Origin: Lentisphaera profundi | GTDB taxonomy: Bacteria; Verrucomicrobiota; Lentisphaeria; Lentisphaerales; Lentisphaeraceae | Assembly (NCBI RefSeq): GCF_028728065.1 | Contig: NZ_CP117812.1 | Coordinates: 930,001 to 994,000, forward strand | Direction: 5' to 3' | Length of the DNA stretch: 64,000 nucleotides | In this document: piece by piece, positions 938-51,219 of the stretch | Layout: the number at the start of each line of letters is the position of its first letter | Position numbering within the stretch: the stretch's first letter is position 1 | Position numbers and translations under genes: made by a program | The notes under the pieces: model-generated | What the model was told of the DNA's origin: nothing | Seen by the model: only the letters and a program-made list of their open reading frames with translations | Databases searched by the model: none

Positions 938-1534
938 TTAATTCATGGGGATACGAATGACAACGCCACCCATGACTTCTCCCATGATAAAATCTGTTCT
1001 GGGGGAATCTTTGTGATCATTATGGCAATCAATGCAAGCATCGGAAACCGCTACGTCAGGATAAACCGCGGTGTAGAATTTTTTGCCACCTAGATCTTCT
1101 GTACCATAAAAGTTTTTACCTGGGTTTGCACCGATAAACTTAAGACCGTCTTTTTCCATGGGGGTCTTTGGAGCATTTTGCTTATTGATGGGCCATTCAG
1201 ATTGCAGCGAGTAGGTAAAGCCGGGGTTCTGTTCCATGGCTAAATCACGACCATAGCGGAACATTTGAGCAGGGAGCATGACGCCATTTTCTTTATCTTC
1301 CCATTGTTCATGAGGTTTGAGTATTTTTTTAGTTTTGCCCAAGTACTTAATGACGTGTTTAGTGTAGGCTGTTCGAGTACCTTTCATGACGGCAAATAGT
1401 GCATCGGCCATTTTTTGAGGTTTAACACTAGCTTCGACTGTTGCCGGGGCAGCAGTTTCAGCGGGTTTATTACAAGAGCTAAAGAAGGCAGCAGCTAAAG
1501 CTAAAGTGAGACATGTCGTTTTGATGAATTTCAT
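938..1534 (-). CDS. Tll0287-like (DUF3365) mono-heme c lipoprotein
   Basis: A 198-residue exported protein. The N-terminus has a lysine, a hydrophobic run and a lipobox-like FFSSC ending at Cys21, so it is probably a lipoprotein. The body resembles the Tll0287/DUF3365 heme-sensor domain, and a single CIDCH heme-c motif lies near residue 167. Family members are small heme c proteins, either free-standing or as the sensing part of signalling proteins. It follows the 11-heme cytochrome gene on the same strand by about 95 bp, suggesting it is the last gene of the redox operon. It could be an accessory electron carrier or a periplasmic ligand or redox sensor; the sequence does not decide which. 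Confidence 0.75.
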   Translation of the reverse strand: MKFIKTTCLTLALAAAFFSSCNKPAETAAPATVEASVKPQKMADALFAVMKGTRTAYTKHVIKYLGKTKKILKPHEQWEDKENGVMLPAQMFRYGRDLAMEQNPGFTYSLQSEWPINKQNAPKTPMEKDGLKFIGANPGKNFYGTEDLGGKKFYTAVYPDVAVSDACIDCHNDHKDSPRTDFIMGEVMGGVVIRIPMN

Positions 1535-1630
1535 AATATTTATTCCTTAAATTGTCTATAGTGATAATGCCTGCAAAATATATTTTGTGGTTTTGGAGAT
1601 GTAGATTTTTGTATATGTATGTGAACCTCC

Positions 1631-2902
1631 TTATTCTCTTTGTTTAGCCCATTCGAGGGATTTGATTTTTTTACTAGGAGCCTTATTGAAATTATGTTTG
1701 ATTAATTCAGGGTCGGCGAGGGCATTTATTGAGAATTCGAGTCCATGACATTTCATACAAGCACTACGGATCATTTTCTCATTAGGTCGAAGATTATTAT
1801 TTTGATTATGGTCTACGATGACTTTGCCATTTTTCTTTATGCGGGGCATGTGGCAGGTGGCACAGGAAACACCCTTGTTGAATTCTTGCATTTCTGAATC
1901 AATCCTCCAGTAGGTGTAATGAGGTGACTTTTTATAATTCAGTGAATGCGCATCATTATGGCACTTTAGGCAGGCATCCATTGCAGCGGTTCGAAGGTTA
2001 AAGCGATGATCATTATGACAGCTAATACAATTCACCTCACGATGGGCCGCTTGTACTTTCATTTCTAAACGAGCATCACCGACTTTCATCGCAGGCAGTC
2101 CCACGTCGAGCCTCATGCCATGGCGACCTTGTTTAAATGAATCAGTCTGAGTTTGATGACAATTCTGGCAGGTTTCTAAGGGAACTTTGTCAGTCCAAGC
2201 TGTATTTTCTTCACTTTGATGACAATCACGGCAATTAACTCCTGCCGCCGCGTGTGCAGTGGAGCTCCAGTCATGTAAAATTTGTGGATTTGGCAATTCG
2301 GGTGAATCGTGTTCAAATAATTGTTTGTTTTTAGCTATTTTTTTATTAATTGAGATTTCACTGGCAGTATGTAGATGAGGATCTTCGCCATAATGCTCCA
2401 CAAGAAAATCTTCATAGAGGGCACGATTATCATGGTAATTATGACATCCAGCCGTCGCACAACTAGTGAAATCGAGTCCTTTATGAGACTCTCTTTCTTC
2501 GCCGATATCCTGGTGGCACTCCATGCAAAAGTCACTTGGTAGAGTGAGTCCCATTTTTGACGTAGAGTGAGGCACGTGCTCACTATGGCAAGTTATGCAT
2601 TTACGTCCATCAAGATTTTGTACCATTTCAAAGTTCCTTGGATCGTTAAATTTCGTTGCAGGGTGAGAATCTTGCCCATCTTTGAGGTCTTGTTGGTGGC
2701 AGTCAAGACAAGCATTTTCTTTGATCCCCATATTGGGAGTATGACAGGCATTGCATTTGAGCTCGATTTGGTAGTGACCATGGCTAGTTTCGTTAGGTAA
2801 AAAATTGGGCTTGAGCTCTTCGTTGAGGAGTTCATTTCCGAAGAAAATTGAAGCCATAGCACTGAGTGCGAGCCATGCAAGTATAGGAATAAGAGTTTTC
2901 AT
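1631..2902 (-). CDS. 11-heme periplasmic cytochrome c
   Basis: The ATG at 2902 is chosen because it gives a hydrophobic signal or anchor segment (residues 3-21) and a 4-bp ATGA overlap with the stop of the upstream oxidoreductase; the open frame extends 35 codons further upstream without a plausible leader. The protein has 423 residues and 11 heme-c motifs, with first cysteines at 50, 65, 102, 126, 148, 224, 245, 292, 311, 347 and 382. Ten are CxxCH; the one at 148 is CX4CH. The N-terminal half resembles cytochrome c7/c3-type modules. The C-terminal half, with a GVSCATCHMP segment and spaced distal histidines, recalls the hydroxylamine oxidoreductase/octaheme reductase superfamily. Translational coupling to the membrane oxidoreductase suggests it takes electrons from it in the periplasm. 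Whether it reduces nitrite or another oxyanion, or only conducts, is unknown. Confidence 0.85.
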   Translation of the reverse strand: MKTLIPILAWLALSAMASIFFGNELLNEELKPNFLPNETSHGHYQIELKCNACHTPNMGIKENACLDCHQQDLKDGQDSHPATKFNDPRNFEMVQNLDGRKCITCHSEHVPHSTSKMGLTLPSDFCMECHQDIGEERESHKGLDFTSCATAGCHNYHDNRALYEDFLVEHYGEDPHLHTASEISINKKIAKNKQLFEHDSPELPNPQILHDWSSTAHAAAGVNCRDCHQSEENTAWTDKVPLETCQNCHQTQTDSFKQGRHGMRLDVGLPAMKVGDARLEMKVQAAHREVNCISCHNDHRFNLRTAAMDACLKCHNDAHSLNYKKSPHYTYWRIDSEMQEFNKGVSCATCHMPRIKKNGKVIVDHNQNNNLRPNEKMIRSACMKCHGLEFSINALADPELIKHNFNKAPSKKIKSLEWAKQRE

Positions 2903-4842
2903 AATGAGAAATAATAAGCTTGGATAATGTGAAAAGTAATGAGTACGGGTAATGGCCAAAAAACGAAGAAATGAACAAAAGTTATGGGGCGTCTCCAACG
3001 TCGACAAAAAGCGGCTATTTTATTAGTTCCATAAAATTCAAAACTGGTGGTAAAGCCGGTGATGACACCAAATGAATTCATTGTAAAAAAGGTCCAAAAT
3101 AAGTATGAATTGAGATTTTTCCCAGAACTAAAACCGGTGTGAGCCATGAGAATGATGAGGCTTAAGAGCGCAAAAATCGCATGAGATAATCGCCATAAAT
3201 TATAGCTTCCCCAGCGGAAAAATTTAAAGCGCTTACGCATACTAATCAGTCCAGCAAAGATACTAAGAGCTAGAATAGTAAAGCCCGTAATTTGTCTCCA
3301 AAGACCACTACGTAGACTTTGGGTAAGTTTGTAAGCGTGTGAGTCGTACGAATCAATAGTCCAATAAGTGGGGGTAAAAAAGAGCAGTAACAAAGCGAAT
3401 AAACATAGGCATGATGAGATCAGTAGTCCACGATTTGGTTTTCTACGGAGTTCAAGTTCTTTACCAGCGAGTTGCGCAATCAGTCCCTCGCAAGATCCAC
3501 AAGCGGTACAGGCCCCCGTTTCTTTTTTTAAAGTAGCGATATCATTGTTACAAGTTTTAAAGCATTGGACGATTTCACCTTTAGTAACTTTTAGGCAGTT
3601 GCAAATGATGGTTTCATCGGGCCATCTTTCTACTGAATCAGTAATGTTCCAAAAGCTGCCTGTTTTGAGAAAGTTTTTAATTTCTTGCTCTGTCAGCAAC
3701 ATGCGATTTTCGATAGCACTTTGGATGCGGCCCAAGTCGGTCCATTCGCCAATTCCGATGGCACCAACAAGATGCTTTTGATCTATGCTTAACATCCGGT
3801 AGGTATTTTCATCTTGATAAGTGATCGATTTGAAAGGCTGTAAAGCAGCTCCTAAACTAACGACGTTTTCCCCCAAAAGTTTTAAACGGGTCGAGGTATC
3901 TGCGCCTAAGAATTTTTGTGTTTGTCCAGAGAAATTAGACGCTAAAATCTCGGCCATTTTATAGGCGGGAGCAACGAGACCATAGATAGTGTTTTGATGG
4001 CGCACACATTCTCCCATAGCATAGACATTTGGAGCTGAAGTTTGGAGTGAGTCATTACAAATTATTCCTCCGCCAAGAGATGTATCAATTCCGGCGTTTT
4101 TTGCCACTTGATGATTGGGGCGAATACCCGCGGAAATGACGATGATATCGCAGTTGATGGCAGAGCCATCTTTAAAAGATATTTCTAGGTGTGAGAAACT
4201 ATTTTTTATTTCCTTTGTAGCCGTTCCCGTATGAACCTTAAAGCCTTTTTTATGAATCTGTTGTTTAAGTCGATTGGAAGCTTCGGGGGTTAATTGTTTT
4301 GGCATCAAAAAATCAGCCATTTCAATGATGTGTGTACTTAAGCCCTGAGCTTGGAGAAAATCAGCGGCTTCAATTCCGAGTAGGCCACCACCAATAACGA
4401 CAGCAGTTTTTTTGTTATTTGAAAATGTGCGGATGGCGTCGGCATCATCAATAGTTCTGTAGGTGAAAACACCTTTTTTTTCCACACCTGGTATAGGTGG
4501 GACAAAAGGAGATGATCCTGTTGCAAATATGAGTTTGTCGTAGCTATAAGTCTTGCCTGTGTCACTAATAACTTTTTGTTGCTCAGTATTTACTTGTTCT
4601 ACACCTTCTCCAAGATGAAGCCCGATGTCATTTTCTCGAAACCATTCAGCTTTAGCTAAGCATATACTATCGAAATTATTATTTCTAGCATAATTTGTGA
4701 GCTTGACACGGTCATAAGCCAGGTGTTTTTCTTTACTGAAAATGATCAAATCATATTGGTTTCCTAAGCCCAGTTTAACAAACTGGTCACAGAAATGTTT
4801 GGCAACCATGCCAAAGCCAATAATGATAATTTTTTCTTTCAT
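2899..4842 (-). CDS. NirB-like FAD/NAD(P) oxidoreductase fused to BFD [2Fe-2S] and membrane cytochrome b
   Basis: A 647-residue three-part fusion. Residues 1-390 are a two-dinucleotide-binding oxidoreductase like the N-terminus of NirB: an FAD motif GFGMVA at 9-14 and an NAD motif VVIGGGLLGIEAA near 148-160. Residues 412-452 form a BFD-type [2Fe-2S] domain with Cys414, Cys416, Cys448 and Cys451. Residues 470-647 hold five predicted membrane helices. Two of these carry His pairs 14 residues apart (His554/His568 and His624/His638), the arrangement expected for two stacked b hemes. The sulfite/nitrite reductase and siroheme domains of true NirB are absent. The inferred role is to pass electrons from NAD(P)H through FAD, the cluster and two b hemes across the membrane to the 11-heme cytochrome encoded next, which overlaps it by 4 bp. 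Its start lies downstream of the tandem hairpins that follow the importer genes. Confidence 0.85.
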   Translation of the reverse strand: MKEKIIIIGFGMVAKHFCDQFVKLGLGNQYDLIIFSKEKHLAYDRVKLTNYARNNNFDSICLAKAEWFRENDIGLHLGEGVEQVNTEQQKVISDTGKTYSYDKLIFATGSSPFVPPIPGVEKKGVFTYRTIDDADAIRTFSNNKKTAVVIGGGLLGIEAADFLQAQGLSTHIIEMADFLMPKQLTPEASNRLKQQIHKKGFKVHTGTATKEIKNSFSHLEISFKDGSAINCDIIVISAGIRPNHQVAKNAGIDTSLGGGIICNDSLQTSAPNVYAMGECVRHQNTIYGLVAPAYKMAEILASNFSGQTQKFLGADTSTRLKLLGENVVSLGAALQPFKSITYQDENTYRMLSIDQKHLVGAIGIGEWTDLGRIQSAIENRMLLTEQEIKNFLKTGSFWNITDSVERWPDETIICNCLKVTKGEIVQCFKTCNNDIATLKKETGACTACGSCEGLIAQLAGKELELRRKPNRGLLISSCLCLFALLLLFFTPTYWTIDSYDSHAYKLTQSLRSGLWRQITGFTILALSIFAGLISMRKRFKFFRWGSYNLWRLSHAIFALLSLIILMAHTGFSSGKNLNSYLFWTFFTMNSFGVITGFTTSFEFYGTNKIAAFCRRWRRPITFVHFFVFWPLPVLITFHIIQAYYFSL

Positions 4843-4890
4843 AAAGATAGAGTCTGTTTTTTAGTTTTTTTGATATGAAACTGTATATAA

Positions 4891-5020
4891 AAAATCCCCA
4901 AGCCATCTCAGTGGAAGTTTGCAGGCGAAAACCAAGACAGCCTGGGAAAGTATTGTGAAAAAAATCCCAGGCCACTTCAGTGGAAGTTTGCAGGCGAAAA
5001 CTAAAGCAGCCCGGGAAAGT
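4891..5020 (-). ncRNA. Tandem pair of hairpin-forming leader/attenuator repeats
   Basis: Two about 58-base copies (about 4893-4951 and 4963-5020) are nearly identical and separated by about 11 bases. They fill the gap between the second ATPase gene (stop at 5023) and the oxidoreductase start (4842). On the minus strand each copy folds with a 7-bp outer stem: CCCGGGC with GCCTGGG in the upstream copy, CCCAGGC with GCTTGGG in the downstream copy. The differing positions keep pairing (G-U to A-U, G-C to G-U). Each copy is followed by a run of 6-7 U. The internal core is 24 bases of perfect identity. It could be a double intrinsic terminator, or tandem regulatory RNA elements controlling the redox genes separately from the transporter. 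No known riboswitch class was recognised. Confidence 0.6.
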
Positions 5021-5022
5021 GT

Positions 5023-5823
5023 TTAAGCGTGTTTTTTCTTTAATTCTTCTTGATCCTCTAAAAAAGAAATTAAGTGTTCACGGTAAGGGTAGTAATTCGG
5101 ATGATTGAGTAAGGCTTGACGATCACGCGGACGAGGCAAGTCATTGACTAAAATGTCACCTAAAGTTGCTTTAGGGCCATTGGTCATCATAATCACCCTA
5201 TCCGAAAGATAGAGGGCCTCATCTACATCATGTGTTACCATCAAGGTGGTGAGCTTGTGTTCCCCATGAAGTTTAACAATCAGATCCTGGAGTTCGTATT
5301 TTGTGAGAGCATCAAGCATCCCTAAGGGTTCATCGAGTAACATTATTTTTGGCTTAAGTGCAAAGGCGCGAGCGATACCTACGCGTTGACGCATGCCACT
5401 AGAGAGTTCCTTGGGTTTTTTATCAATGGCACCACTAAGGCCAACTGCGTGGAGATAGTGCATAACAATTTCTTCTTTTTCCTTGGCACTGGCATGAGGG
5501 TAAACTTTTTTAACCCCTAGCATGACATTTTCATAGGCAGTTAACCAAGGGAGCAGACTGGGCGCTTGAAAGACGACTCCTCTGTCGGGTCCAGGGCCAT
5601 TTATTTCTTTGTCTGCTACAGCGACTGAACCTTTTGTTATATCATTTAAACCAGCAACCATTGAGAGGATTGTCGATTTTCCACAGCCTGAATGGCCAAT
5701 AAGACAAACAAATTCAGATTCGGGTATTTGTAGATTAAAATCTTCTAAGACGACAAAGGGACCTTTTTTAGTTTCGTAAATTTTACTTAAATTCGATAGT
5801 TCTAAATAGCGATTTTTATCCAT
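5023..5823 (-). CDS. Nitrate/taurine-type ABC transporter ATPase (NrtD-like)
   Basis: A 266-residue cytoplasmic ABC ATPase with Walker A GHSGCGKST, signature LSSGMRQRVGIARA (a Gly-to-Ser change in the usual LSGG) and Walker B IMLLDEPLGMLDAL followed by the D-loop. It belongs to the NitT/TauT ATPase family that energises uptake of nitrate, nitrite, cyanate or sulfonates. It follows the other ATPase by 8 bp and is the last transporter gene before the tandem hairpins. The serine in the signature is conservative and does not imply inactivity. The neighbouring NrtA-like binding protein makes nitrate/nitrite the preferred substrate, but this is inferred. Confidence 0.85.
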   Translation of the reverse strand: MDKNRYLELSNLSKIYETKKGPFVVLEDFNLQIPESEFVCLIGHSGCGKSTILSMVAGLNDITKGSVAVADKEINGPGPDRGVVFQAPSLLPWLTAYENVMLGVKKVYPHASAKEKEEIVMHYLHAVGLSGAIDKKPKELSSGMRQRVGIARAFALKPKIMLLDEPLGMLDALTKYELQDLIVKLHGEHKLTTLMVTHDVDEALYLSDRVIMMTNGPKATLGDILVNDLPRPRDRQALLNHPNYYPYREHLISFLEDQEELKKKHA

Positions 5824-5831
5824 AATAAACC

Positions 5832-6677
5832 TCAGATGACAGCCGGCTCAATAGCCGGTAGTGGATAGCTAGAGCTATCGGTAGTGTCGTTTAATTGTTC
5901 TTTGCGTTTTTCTTCATTTAAGAAACCAATGACTTCAGCACGTAGTTTGCGGTATTGCTCATTATGATTGAGGGTTTTTTGATTACGTGGACGAGGGATA
6001 TTGATATCGTAAGAAGGGCCGAGTGTGGCATTGGGACCTATGGTGATTGGAATGATTCGATCAGCCATATAGATGCCTTCATCAACATCATTGGTGATGA
6101 GCACAACGGTTTTTCCTGTAGATTTCCAGATATTGATGATCTGATCTTGTAGTACTGAACGAGTTAGAGCATCGAGGGCACTTAAGGGTTCATCCATGAG
6201 TAAGATATCGGGATCCATGGAAAGGGCCCGTGCTACAGAAACACGCTGGCGCATACCCCCTGAAAGTTCTTTCGGTTTTTGGTGGATCGCAGGTGTTAAG
6301 CTGACCATGTCCACATATTTTTCTATTAAAGCTTTGCGTTCGTGCTTTGGTTTATCTTTGTGGATTTGATTGACTGCTAAGCCGACATTGCCTTCGACGG
6401 ATAACCAAGGAAGTAAAGAATAGTTTTGAAAGATGACGCCTCTGTCAGGAGCAGGGCCCGTAACGGCTTCACCCTTGCATCTTACTTCACCCTCACTGGG
6501 TTCCAAGAGTCCGCCCATGAGGTTGATAAGAGTAGATTTTCCCATGCCAGAAAAACCGACGATGGCGACAAATTCTCCTTCTTTAATCTGTAAATTTATG
6601 TCTTTAAGGATCTCGGCGCGATTTTCTTTTTCGCCAAAGTGTCTACTGACATTATTGAGTTCTAGAATATAGTCCAT
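5832..6677 (-). CDS. Nitrate/taurine-type ABC transporter ATPase (NrtC/NrtD-like)
   Basis: A 281-residue ABC ATPase with Walker A GFSGMGKST, signature LSGGMRQRVSVARA and Walker B DILLMDEPLSALDAL. It is of NrtD length and lacks the NrtA-like C-terminal domain of cyanobacterial NrtC, so nitrate cannot gate this subunit in the cyanobacterial way. A strong ribosome-binding site (AGGAG) precedes the ATG at 6677, and the gap from the permease stop is 13 bp. Two different ATPase genes in one operon suggest a heterodimeric motor, as in NrtCD. Confidence 0.85.
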   Translation of the reverse strand: MDYILELNNVSRHFGEKENRAEILKDINLQIKEGEFVAIVGFSGMGKSTLINLMGGLLEPSEGEVRCKGEAVTGPAPDRGVIFQNYSLLPWLSVEGNVGLAVNQIHKDKPKHERKALIEKYVDMVSLTPAIHQKPKELSGGMRQRVSVARALSMDPDILLMDEPLSALDALTRSVLQDQIINIWKSTGKTVVLITNDVDEGIYMADRIIPITIGPNATLGPSYDINIPRPRNQKTLNHNEQYRKLRAEVIGFLNEEKRKEQLNDTTDSSSYPLPAIEPAVI

Positions 6678-6690
6678 TATCAGCTCCTAA

Positions 6691-8208
6691 TTAAGCGGCT
6701 ACGTCGTCGTTGAAACTTACGAGTTTTTGGAAGATTGACATGATACGGTCGAGTACGGCACCAATGAAACCAATGATGAAGATACAGACGATGATATTGG
6801 CGAGAGATTCAACTTTATTATTTTGGTACTCTTGATCAATGTACCAACCCAGACCTCTTGAAGTAGCCATCATTTCTGAAACGATCAGCACCATCCATCC
6901 CACACCTAGAGTGATGCGTAATCCTGTAAAAATATAAGGGATGGCAGAGGGGATGATAATTTTAAAAATACGGTCAAACCAGCTCAGCTTCAATACTTTG
7001 GCGACGTTCATATGATCGGGGTCTACAGAGCTTACACCAAGCGCGGTGTTAGATAATGTGGCCCACATCGCACAGAGTGCTACAGTGATCCCTGAGTGAA
7101 GAAAAGTATTCTTTACGATGTCGCCAGTGAGAGCATTATCACCGACGAAAATACCATCAATGATCTGAATAGTGATTAATACCCAGGCGAGGGGAGACAC
7201 CGGACGGAAAGTTTGTATGAGTGGGTTAAGGGCAGTCATGATTGAAGGGCTAAGTCCACAAAGGATGCCAATGGGGATGGCAATGAAAGCCGCTAGGAAA
7301 AAGCCAAATAAAACAGTGATGATACTCAGTTTTATATAATCGACAATACTACCATTGGAGTTGTATTCTTTACCTTTAAAAATTTGTTTTTCAAAAGCAT
7401 CGAGTTTCTTTTTGTTGGAACTTATTTTTTTCTCTAATTCAGCTTTTTTAGGATCATTTTGATAGATGAGGTCTTGTTGGTAGTATTTATCAATTTTCTC
7501 AATCTTTTTAATCAAAGCTAAAGCGGTGTTTTCACTGCTTTTATAGATACGAGCAAGGTTCCCTTCGTAAACAGCTACCCGGCGATTATTGATATTGGCT
7601 AGTTTAGATAAACTTTCATCAGAAAGTTTGGGTTTGCCATCTAAGTCCATTACCAGTTCTTTATTGTCGTCATAGACGAATTTTTTCATTGTCTTGAGTT
7701 GAGTCGTGAGAGTAGCTACAGATGCTTTTTTATCACCTTCAGCTTTTTCAACAATAGCTTGATTCACTTTTATCTCATTGCTGAGTTTGCTAAGATGTTT
7801 TCCGATAACACTTTTAAGAGAATTGATTTTAGAAGTAAGAACTTTTTTGGTTTCGCTCATGCTTGTTTGTTGACGTTGCTCAATAAGTCCAGCGAGTTCT
7901 TTTCGAAAGTTTTCGTTGGTGATAAATTCATCTTTGTTAAATTTTTCGGTTTTGTGAGTGGCCCACATGGCTTTGGCCTGACTTAATACGTAAGAGGGAC
8001 CAGGTAATTGACCAACGGATGTTTTTATTTTGGTAGAGCTGTAACTCCATATCATAAAGAAAGATACTATTGCAGCTAGCGGTAGAGCTATTTGACGGAA
8101 GAGGTCTCCCATTTGTTCTTTTGGATCATCTCCAGTACATAATCGTACGATAGGAATGAACCAGGTGAGTCCTGTTAATTCAAAAAAATTGATGAGCTTT
8201 TGTTTCAT
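6691..8208 (-). CDS. NrtB-like ABC permease with large coiled-coil insertion
   Basis: The start at ATG 8208 is preferred (AGGA about 8 bases upstream) over a TTG 15 bases further out, giving 505 residues. One membrane helix near residues 38-58 is followed by LPGPSYVLSQAKAMW, the usual entry to NrtB permeases. About 200 residues rich in Lys, Glu and heptad-like Leu follow (about 80-285), and only then the BPD_transp_1 core (from YIKLSIITVLFGFF to the end, five or more helices). NrtB is normally about 250-300 residues, so the insertion nearly doubles it. By topology it should lie in the periplasm and might dock the binding protein or the neighbouring cytochromes. The position between the binding protein and two ATPases supports the transporter call. 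Confidence 0.83.
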   Translation of the reverse strand: MKQKLINFFELTGLTWFIPIVRLCTGDDPKEQMGDLFRQIALPLAAIVSFFMIWSYSSTKIKTSVGQLPGPSYVLSQAKAMWATHKTEKFNKDEFITNENFRKELAGLIEQRQQTSMSETKKVLTSKINSLKSVIGKHLSKLSNEIKVNQAIVEKAEGDKKASVATLTTQLKTMKKFVYDDNKELVMDLDGKPKLSDESLSKLANINNRRVAVYEGNLARIYKSSENTALALIKKIEKIDKYYQQDLIYQNDPKKAELEKKISSNKKKLDAFEKQIFKGKEYNSNGSIVDYIKLSIITVLFGFFLAAFIAIPIGILCGLSPSIMTALNPLIQTFRPVSPLAWVLITIQIIDGIFVGDNALTGDIVKNTFLHSGITVALCAMWATLSNTALGVSSVDPDHMNVAKVLKLSWFDRIFKIIIPSAIPYIFTGLRITLGVGWMVLIVSEMMATSRGLGWYIDQEYQNNKVESLANIIVCIFIIGFIGAVLDRIMSIFQKLVSFNDDVAA

Positions 8209-8239
8209 GAGTATATCCTGCAAGTTTCCAATTGGTGGT

Positions 8240-8259
8240 GCCCCTCACAGAGGAGGGGC
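8240..8259 (-). promoter_or_regulatory. Hairpin between binding-protein and permease genes
   Basis: GCCCCTC and GAGGGGC pair around a 6-base loop in the 63-bp gap after the nrtA-like stop. There is no U-run. Such hairpins after solute-binding-protein genes usually stabilise the upstream mRNA or partly attenuate transcription, so that the binding protein is made in excess over the permease. Confidence 0.55.
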
Positions 8260-8271
8260 GGAATTTAATGA

Positions 8272-9636
8272 TTAAGGAGCTTTGATTTCGAAGCTATCGA
8301 TGTAGTCGTTAGGTTTTTTTCCGTCATAGACTTTGCCATCGATGAAGATGTCTTCCGTGGTAGCGGGCTTATAGCCCGTTTCACCATCTGCAGGAATTTC
8401 ACTTTCTTCGATATTGCCTTCTTCTATGAGCAGCTTGGCGGCTTCCATATAGAGATTAGGTTTATAGATTTTTTCAGCAGTTTTTGTGTACCACTCGTCG
8501 CTTTGATCTTCTTTGAGTTGGCCCCAACGGCGCATTTGAGTTAAGAACCAAATACAATCTGAGTAGAAAGGGTAGGTAGCTTTGTAGCGAAAGAAGACGT
8601 TAAAATCAGGCATTTCTCTGCGATCACCACGTTCGTAAACAAATGTACCAGTCATAGAATTACGAAGAACTTTAGCTTCTGCACCTACGTAGTGAGATCT
8701 AGAGAGAATTTGTACAGCTTCTTCGCGGTTAGCTTCAGAAGCATCAAGCCATTTAGCTGCACGTATAAGTGCTTTGAGAACTGCGGTGTGAGTTTTTGGG
8801 TTTTTAGCGGCCCATTCTTCCGTTACACCAAAAACTTTTTCAGGGTTGTTTTTCCAGATTTCATAATTAGTGACAACTGGAACACCTAGTTGTTTACCAT
8901 CTTTATCAGCAAATACGGCCTTCTGATTCCAGGGTTCACCTACACAGTAGCCCATAATTGCACGACTATTAAGGTAAGAAGGCATAAGTGGAGGAGCGTT
9001 AGGAGATATAACGACTTCAGCATCGGTATGACCTTTAGAGTCAGATGCGGTATAGAAGCCTGGGTGAATACCCGCAGCAGCTAGCCAGTATCTCAGCTCA
9101 TAGTTATGAGTTGATACAGGGAAAACCATACCCATATTGAAAGGGCCATCCCAGTTTTCGAGTACTGGTTTCAGTGAATCTGCTTTGATAGGATGAATTG
9201 GTTTGCCATCGGCATCTTGAGGGATGTGTTCTTTCATTTGTTCCCAGACATCAGTTGCCATGGTGATAGCATTACCATTTAAATCCATACTGAATGCTGT
9301 TATTACATTGGCTTTTTGGCTGACGCCAACGGTGGCGCCAATAGGTTGACCTGCAAGCATGTGAGCGCCATCGAGTGCGCCTTTAATGACGTTATCCAGC
9401 AGTATAACCCAGTTTTTTTGAGCCGTTAGTTTTACATTGAGGCCTTCAGCTTCAAAAAAACCTTTTTCTTTAGCAATAACTAAAGAGGCACAATCAGTTA
9501 ATTTAATGAAGCCGAAATGGAGATTAGTTTTTTCTACATCGAGAGGGATGGTGTTTTCATCGACGCTTTCTGCCATGCTTGTAACAGTGCAAAAGAGGAA
9601 AAAGCTAAGGATAGCTTTTTTGATTTTTGTTTTCAT
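8272..9636 (-). CDS. NrtA-like nitrate/nitrite substrate-binding protein
   Basis: A 454-residue exported protein with an N-terminal signal peptide (Lys-rich start, hydrophobic core, cleavage near Ala22). The segment [20 protein letters not shown] and the following [16 protein letters not shown] are typical of NrtA/CmpA-type binding proteins, and the length matches NrtA rather than the shorter TauA or SsuA. A long Met-, Trp- and Pro-containing C-terminal half is retained. No lipobox is evident, so it is probably soluble and periplasmic. A good ribosome-binding site (AAGGAAC) precedes the ATG. It is the first gene of the transporter operon, so the promoter should lie within 9637-9916. NrtA and the bicarbonate-binding CmpA are close homologues, so bicarbonate cannot be fully excluded, but the neighbouring redox genes favour nitrate or nitrite. 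Confidence 0.85.
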
Positions 9637-50311: not shown

Positions 50312-50931
50312 AAGTGAAACTCCGTTATTAATTTGATTACTTGCCCTTGTATATAAAGGAAAATGAAAAACGTTACGCTGAAATTTATAAAATCATTAAA
50401 AATAATTCCTCAAAAGCCATAAATGAATTTTTATTGAATGATTATTTCGGTGTTTGTGAAGGAAAGTGCTAATATTTTTTTGTTATCGCCTCTCAAGGTG
50501 ACGCGCTTTTTATCTGCCCCCGGTGGCAGCCGGACTTGCAGGGAAGGGGACGGAGTCCCAAGGCTATAATAAAATAAAGGGGGGTAGTTATTCCGCCTCA
50601 CTCCGGCGGGGAGGTGTTGCCACACGGGCGGATAAAAAAATTAATTAATTTATCGCCTCTCAAGGTGGGCACACCTTGCAGGGAAGGGGACGGAGTCCCA
50701 AAGCTTCGAGGAAAAATGAGGGGATAGTTTCGCCTCACTCCGGCGGGGAGGTGTTGCCACACGGGCGGATAAAAGGAAAGGGTGGTGAGTTGATCGCTTA
50801 ACAGCGGGTTGCGGTTGCCACCGCGGGCGGATAAAAGGGGGGGGTAGTTTCGCCTCACTCCAGCGGGGAGGTGTTGCCACACGGGCGGATGAAAAAATTA
50901 AATTATTGCCACACGGGCGCGGCTAGCAGCA
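50312..50931. other. Long non-coding region with nested GC-rich repeats
   Basis: About 620 bases without a credible gene. Open frames on the minus strand here are a consequence of repeat units (a common PACGNTSPP-like reading) and have no ribosome-binding sites. The first 150 bases are AT-rich; the remainder is filled by the repeats listed separately. Confidence 0.7.
50483..50925 (+). repeat. Nested array of about 150-bp GC-rich repeat units
   Basis: Two long units (50483-50637 and 50651-50774) share TTATCGCCTCTCAAGGTG, then TTGCAGGGAAGGGGACGGAG, TCCCAA, a variable middle, CGCCTCACTCCGGCGGGGAGG and TGTTGCCACACGGGCGGATAAAA. Unit 1 has extra sequence inside, apparently an insertion of a related element (50498-50530, CTGCCCCCGGTGGCAG). 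Two partial units (about 50776-50835 and 50836-50891) and a fragment (50905-50925) follow. Spacing and sizes vary, so this is not a CRISPR array. It looks like accumulated copies of a short mobile or hairpin element. Confidence 0.8.
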
Positions 50932-51219
50932 TCACTTCATGTAAAGAAATTTTTGTAGGGGGAGCAGTTCAACTTTGATGACTTTGTCTTCGGGAGGGTA
51001 TTTGGGTTTATAGGACGTGATACTTAGTTCCAAGATTTCGCCATCGCGTGAAAGGACTCTTCCTTCGCTATAAATTTTTTTGAAGTAAATATTTTCTATT
51101 TTCACGGTGTCGTTTCTAGAGATGATGAGCACTGAACTTTCGCTAAAGTAATGCTTACTTCCGTCAAAGCTGCTACAGGAGCTTAAAGTGAGAAGGATTA
51201 AAAAGTATAAAAATTTCAT
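50932..51219 (-). CDS. Small lipoprotein of unknown function
   Basis: A 95-residue protein with a lipoprotein signal (MKFLYFLILLTLSSCSS, lipid Cys near 15) and a short beta-rich domain. No family recognised. It stands alone between the repeat region and the Lys/Glu-rich protein gene. Confidence 0.6.
   Translation of the reverse strand: MKFLYFLILLTLSSCSSFDGSKHYFSESSVLIISRNDTVKIENIYFKKIYSEGRVLSRDGEILELSITSYKPKYPPEDKVIKVELLPLQKFLYMK

Follow-up and report, generated by a model that had tools for sequence, protein, structure and literature searches.

An intercistronic RNA hairpin conserved in the nitrate importer operon of Lentisphaera, with a possible antisense function

Results

The nitrate importer operon and its surroundings

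The window, by which we mean the whole 64,000-nucleotide stretch of Lentisphaera profundi DNA analysed here, carries on its minus strand an operon in the order nrtA-nrtB-nrtC-nrtD, nirX, multiheme cytochrome and tll, with a hairpin-containing gap between nrtD and nirX. The importer genes encode an nrtA-like nitrate-binding protein (NMT1_2; 8272..9636), the permease NrtB (6691..8208, start codon ATG at 8208-8206) and two nitrate ABC ATPases, NrtC (5832..6677) and NrtD (5023..5823; TIGR01184, above cut-off). Beyond the hairpins, which follow the nrtD stop codon, lie nirX (2899..4842), a name coined here for a NirB-like FAD/NADH oxidoreductase with a BFD [2Fe-2S] domain, the gene for a multiheme cytochrome c (1631..2901) and, last in the operon, the Tll0287-like gene tll (938..1534). 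NirX lacks the siroheme (sulfite/nitrite-reductase) half. Because the true NirB (836 aa) and a nitrate reductase are encoded in another cluster and not in the nrt operon, we refer to the downstream genes neutrally as redox genes. NirX is the N-terminal half of NirB fused to a membrane domain, and together with the multiheme cytochrome it makes up an unusual NADH-to-haem electron path adjoining the nitrate importer.

TTAC-N6-GTAA palindromes occur in the operon only as a pair upstream of the nrtA start, with none before nirX, nrtB or tll, a placement consistent with a single predicted transcript from nrtA to tll. Sites of this kind, some of them imperfect, lie 15-65 nt before the start codons of nitrate genes, namely nrtA (window 9636), the true nirB (G000:C1:1827537) and narK (G000:C2:925733), and before the orthologues in two other Lentisphaera genomes (G001, G002) and two genomes of the sister genus (G004, G005); nrtA is preceded by two copies in all three Lentisphaera species. 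TTAC-N6-GTAA is likely the operator of some nitrogen regulator.

The gap between nrtA and nrtB holds a compact hairpin (8233-8262) with arms CCCCTCC...GAGGGG in the window and TCCCTCC...GGAGGGA in the relatives, just upstream of the nrtB site discussed below; it is of the kind that separates expression of binding protein and permease. Elsewhere in the window, a long intergenic stretch (50480-50950) contains about three copies of G+C-rich imperfect repeats, GCCTCACTCCGGCGGGGAGGTGTTGCCACACGGGCGGAT, resembling a dispersed palindromic repeat family.

Two hairpins between nrtD and nirX

On the coding (minus) strand, the gap between nrtD and nirX is occupied by two hairpins (4889-5018). As a preliminary description had proposed, two near-identical units fill the space between transporter and redox genes. 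The units are 66 nt each (4889-4954 and 4958-5023), 85% identical and spaced by 69 nt, and each consists of a 17-bp stem and an 18-nt loop. The proximal hairpin (4965..5016; 5′ arm 5016-5000, loop 4999-4982, 3′ arm 4981-4965) begins about 7 nt past the nrtD stop codon. The distal hairpin (4896..4947) has its 5′ arm at 4947-4931, its loop at 4930-4913 and its 3′ arm at 4912-4896, with a covariance-model match at 4895-4949. The loop sequence UUUCGCCUGCAAACUUCC (4982..4999 and 4913-4930) is invariant. A run of seven U follows the proximal unit (4958..4964) and one of six U the distal unit (4889-4894).

Predicted fold energies were -26.4 kcal/mol for the proximal hairpin (z -4.4) and -23.9 kcal/mol for the distal one (z -3.8), and none of 200 shuffled sequences folded as well. 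The plus strand folded no better than shuffles (z -0.6 and -0.7). The 24-nt core CAGTGGAAGTTTGCAGGCGAAAAC occurs just twice in the window even when 3 mismatches are allowed (expected 0.00), and the unit has no other occurrence in the 5.46-Mb genome. Scanning the window against Rfam at two thresholds, the curated gathering threshold among them, returned 0 matches; the best E for the region was 1.9, and nothing relevant came up. A terminator scan with a loop limit of 8 missed both units.

Conservation of the hairpin in Lentisphaera

We compared the window species with two other Lentisphaera genomes, G001, which matches L. marina, and G002, which represents another species. A covariance-model search recovered the unit in both. 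Each has one unit in the same gap between nrtD and nirX and lacks the distal copy; the tandem arrangement is thus confined to the window species and is not essential. In all three species the first stem begins no more than about 8 nt past the nrtD stop codon. Across the four copies, 17 of 17 base pairs are kept, three of them by double changes, and when the pairing partners were slid by 1-3 columns as a control only 35-60% of positions paired. The differences between the two window copies likewise preserve every pair. U-G and G-U pairs in the middle of the stem are invariant. The loop is identical in all four copies, and the upper stem is nearly or fully identical in each. By comparison, identity between species at 4-fold degenerate sites of the operon is 40-49%. 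The window units are less alike (8 differing stem-loop positions) than they are to their orthologues (4-6), so the identical loops are not merely the mark of a fresh duplication.

Conservation does not extend to the U-runs. The preliminary description had each unit ending in a U-run on the coding strand; this holds in the window species (U6-U7) but not in the two relatives, which read GACUUCUU instead. As an internal control we used the terminator that separates nrtA from the regulator gene upstream of it and shows the reverse pattern: its U-run is kept and its loop drifts. A conserved U-run directly after the stem, as an intrinsic terminator or attenuator would have, is lacking in the hairpin unit, and the proposal of a double attenuator is weakened by the loss of the U-run in two of three species and by a loop far larger than in ordinary terminators. 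Selection on structure, on the other hand, is well supported by the comparative data, as a homologous unit stands upstream of the same gene with its pairing intact in both other Lentisphaera genomes.

Beyond the genus, a covariance-model search of 195 further genomes of the class returned nothing convincing (one weak match, E 0.035). When 85,000 species genomes were scanned for the 18-mer loop, eight matches were obtained; only that in L. marina lay in a hairpin with these flanks, and the rest were at chance level.

Complementarity between the loop and the leaders of nrtB and tll

Aligning all gaps of the operon in the three species brought out two further short invariant blocks, GGAAACTTGCAGGA and TTTGCAGGC. 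The former includes the Shine-Dalgarno sequence of nrtB and the latter lies in the leader of tll. Both are complementary to the hairpin loop. At nrtB, the putative target GGAAACUUGCAGGA (8216..8229, minus strand) overlaps the Shine-Dalgarno sequence GCAGGA and would pair with the loop over 7+4 bp, with a predicted duplex energy of -15.2 to -15.5 kcal/mol in the three species. At tll, the putative target UUUGCAGGC (1569..1577, minus strand) is a perfect 9-bp complement of the loop; it lies 34 nt upstream of the start codon and not over the Shine-Dalgarno sequence. Both targets are invariant in the three species. The hairpin had been suggested to act only on the redox genes, but its loop complements the nrtB ribosome-binding site and the tll leader, not the start of the adjacent redox gene.

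We assessed this complementarity against several controls. When the loop was shuffled 4000 times at the dinucleotide level, pairing of the observed strength at two or more of the six operon genes in all three species arose 1 time, and in 4000 mononucleotide shuffles it arose 0 times, figures to be read with the complementarity having been noticed post hoc and the nrtB and tll sites sharing UUGCAGG, so that they are not fully independent. The result did not depend on how the loop was trimmed, and same-sense (reverse-complement), reversed and complement versions of the loop gave no comparable pairing. In a sample of 156 orthologue pairs ranked by conserved upstream complementarity, tll came second and nrtB third; the first was a TrmH-like gene, which pairs inside the apparent coding end of the upstream gene. 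The nrtB start window ranked 4/621, 3/316 and 1/47 in the three Lentisphaera species. The tll leader is the one intergenic place where the sequence TTTTGCAGGCA occurs; elsewhere in the three genomes it falls within open reading frames. In the predicted fold the core of the loop lies open (0.35-0.41 kcal/mol to open), and opening the targets would cost 3-5 kcal/mol compared with duplexes of -15 to -16.

Taken alone, nrtB is no more than moderately unusual (p about 0.01-0.03). When the loop was replaced by the whole 50-nt 3′UTR, p values were 0.10, 0.002 and 0.03 in Lentisphaera and 0.025 and 0.28 in the sister genus. As loop and targets are both invariant in the three species, they offer no compensatory change to read. 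A wider nitrate regulon of the loop was also considered, because the true nirB and narK start regions looked complementary in the window species, and was rejected: G002 has lost the nirB site, and the match at narK falls in coding sequence.

The sister genus and other Verrucomicrobiota

The two genomes of the sister genus are without the Lentisphaera hairpin. Their nrtD 3′UTR starts with UAACACAAGCC, and 10 of 11 positions can pair with the nrtB site GGCUAGUGUUA in G004. None of 3000 shuffles equalled this pairing in G004, and the corresponding fraction in G005 was 0.004. With an 11-nt seed, nrtB ranked 1/122 and 1/206 among genes in the two genomes, although in G005 it fell from rank 1 to 21 with a longer seed. 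These results, dependent as they are on seed length, are only suggestive of an nrtD 3′UTR that would act as antisense of its own nrtB site through a different sequence. Such pairing is not general in Verrucomicrobiota: among 16 other operons with a long NrtB, two (G438 and G381) reached p < 0.05 (Fisher p 0.27), and we did not count these outliers as support. In G438 (L231) the nrtD-nasA gap has an 11-bp match to its own nrtB start region, and in G381 (L227) the complementary sequence is in a hairpin loop after nrtD; the complementarity in the two ranges over 10-11 bp.

An ordinary terminator closes nrtD in the sister genus, where nirX has a strong terminator-like hairpin in front of it. The gap between porin and nirX (L052:1374-1441, L053:3489-3561) contains a conserved GTTTCCCTACCGAGATGAGCG followed by the hairpin GGGGGC...GCCCCC-T5/6. 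This may be an attenuator, or it may simply be the porin terminator.

Discussion

On the evidence of comparative sequence analysis, the hairpin between nrtD and nirX is an undescribed RNA element conserved across species of the marine bacterium Lentisphaera. The best-supported explanation, to which we give a probability of about 0.45, is that it is an antisense hairpin limiting nrtBCD relative to nrtA, and the co-conservation of loop and target sites suggests self-regulation of the operon by RNA pairing. The hairpin would be made as an intercistronic element within the nrtABCD-nirX-cytochrome-tll transcript, its stem displaying the 18-nt loop as an antisense seed. The loop would then pair with GGAAACUUGCAGGA over the nrtB Shine-Dalgarno sequence and with UUUGCAGGC in the tll leader. 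The acting form may be a free hairpin, produced by cleavage or termination in the 3′ region of nrtD, or part of the polycistronic mRNA; we found neither a separate promoter nor a conserved terminator that would yield a free RNA. Covering the nrtB Shine-Dalgarno sequence would lower nrtBCD and the distal genes and spare nrtA, so that the binding protein would stay in excess, in the way that OppZ acts on oppBCDF. In the window species, the second copy would provide a higher dose.

OppZ of Vibrio cholerae is processed from the oppABCDF 3′UTR; by pairing at the start of oppB it reduces oppBCDF and leaves oppA unaffected (PMC7398697). Like OppZ, the Lentisphaera hairpin follows the transporter genes of an ABC importer, has a conserved seed just past the stop codon of its parental operon's transporter genes and is predicted to pair where translation of the operon's second gene starts, leaving the binding-protein gene free. 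The presence of a conserved sequence directly past the stop codon and of a seed complementary to a same-operon translation start is what marks sRNAs of the OppZ/CarZ type. Unlike OppZ, which sits at the operon end and uses its own 5′ end, the Lentisphaera element is intercistronic with redox genes after it, carries its seed in a large hairpin loop and has a second site downstream. It has neither the 3′-end location with a terminator nor, it would seem, the Hfq dependence of that type: a search for Hfq (PF17209) found no gene in the three Lentisphaera genomes and detected it in the controls, which included E. coli and B. subtilis (five genomes). OppZ/CarZ-type sRNAs are furthermore released as discrete RNAs by RNase E. 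The fit is one of logic and not of descent, and we claim no sequence relation. NarS of Salmonella is an sRNA from the narK 3′UTR that is processed by RNase E and represses nirC (reviewed in PMC9438474). As we propose for the hairpin, an RNA originating at the 3′ end of a transcript for nitrate transport acts there on another transporter cistron of nitrate metabolism, but NarS acts on a different operon, and no relation in sequence or structure is claimed.

We consider it a live, if less likely, alternative that the hairpin acts only in cis, protecting the nrtABCD mRNA at its 3′ end or serving as a partial terminator or processing site that lowers the redox genes, with the loop kept for another reason. 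Its position about 7 nt past the nrtD stop codon, its very stable stem and the U-runs of the window species would fit such a role, as would the ordinary terminator after nrtD and the terminator-like hairpin before nirX in the sister genus. However, an invariant loop of 18 nt is more than a stabiliser or terminator requires, two of three species have no U-run, the terminator scan misses the units, and the ordinary terminator upstream of nrtA shows the opposite pattern of conservation.

An invariant loop and tandem U-G/G-U pairs in a covarying stem also look like a recognised RNA, and RNA-binding antiterminators are employed by nitrate operons in other bacteria (PMC3369931, PMC3795266). The hairpin might thus bind a regulatory protein (an antiterminator or translational regulator) or a small nitrogen-status ligand and act on the downstream redox genes. 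In our estimate this rival is live but rather improbable, as it does not explain why blocks complementary to the loop are conserved at nrtB and tll, and the element has a single locus per genome and no Rfam match. The leaders of ANTAR proteins (NasR/NasT, EutV) have a pair of small hairpins, each with a hexanucleotide loop (A1, G4), and an overlapping terminator (PMC3369931). They share with the window species the presence of RNA hairpins in a nitrate-assimilation operon, and two of them, but a single 17-bp hairpin with a loop of 18 nt, not 6, suffices in G001 and G002; loop size and single copy rule out an ANTAR/NasR-type leader. A search for ANTAR-domain proteins gave no match, and none in the control genomes either.

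A DNA-level element, either a transcription-factor site or a mobile repeat, might be read from the inverted-repeat arms and from TTGCAGG, which occurs at three operon gaps in either orientation, but is highly improbable given that the coding strand alone pairs completely, that the stem retains G-U pairs, which would be mismatched in DNA, that the opposite strand folds no better than shuffles and that the unit has one locus per genome, which excludes a dispersed repeat.

The antisense hairpin can be extended to a broader and more doubtful proposal, which we put forward tentatively: an Hfq-free hairpin-loop antisense inside an ABC-importer/redox operon would set the operon's own protein ratios via the ribosome-binding site of the second gene, and the sister genus may use a different, co-diverged sequence to the same end. 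In the literature searched, we found no regulatory RNA of such a kind in Lentisphaerota. If the proposal is true, antisense autoregulation from a 3′UTR or intercistronic region, so far seen in V. cholerae with Hfq, would extend to a phylum in which we found no Hfq. The operon would then be a compact and testable case in which the ratio of binding protein to permease is set by an RNA coded between the operon's own genes.
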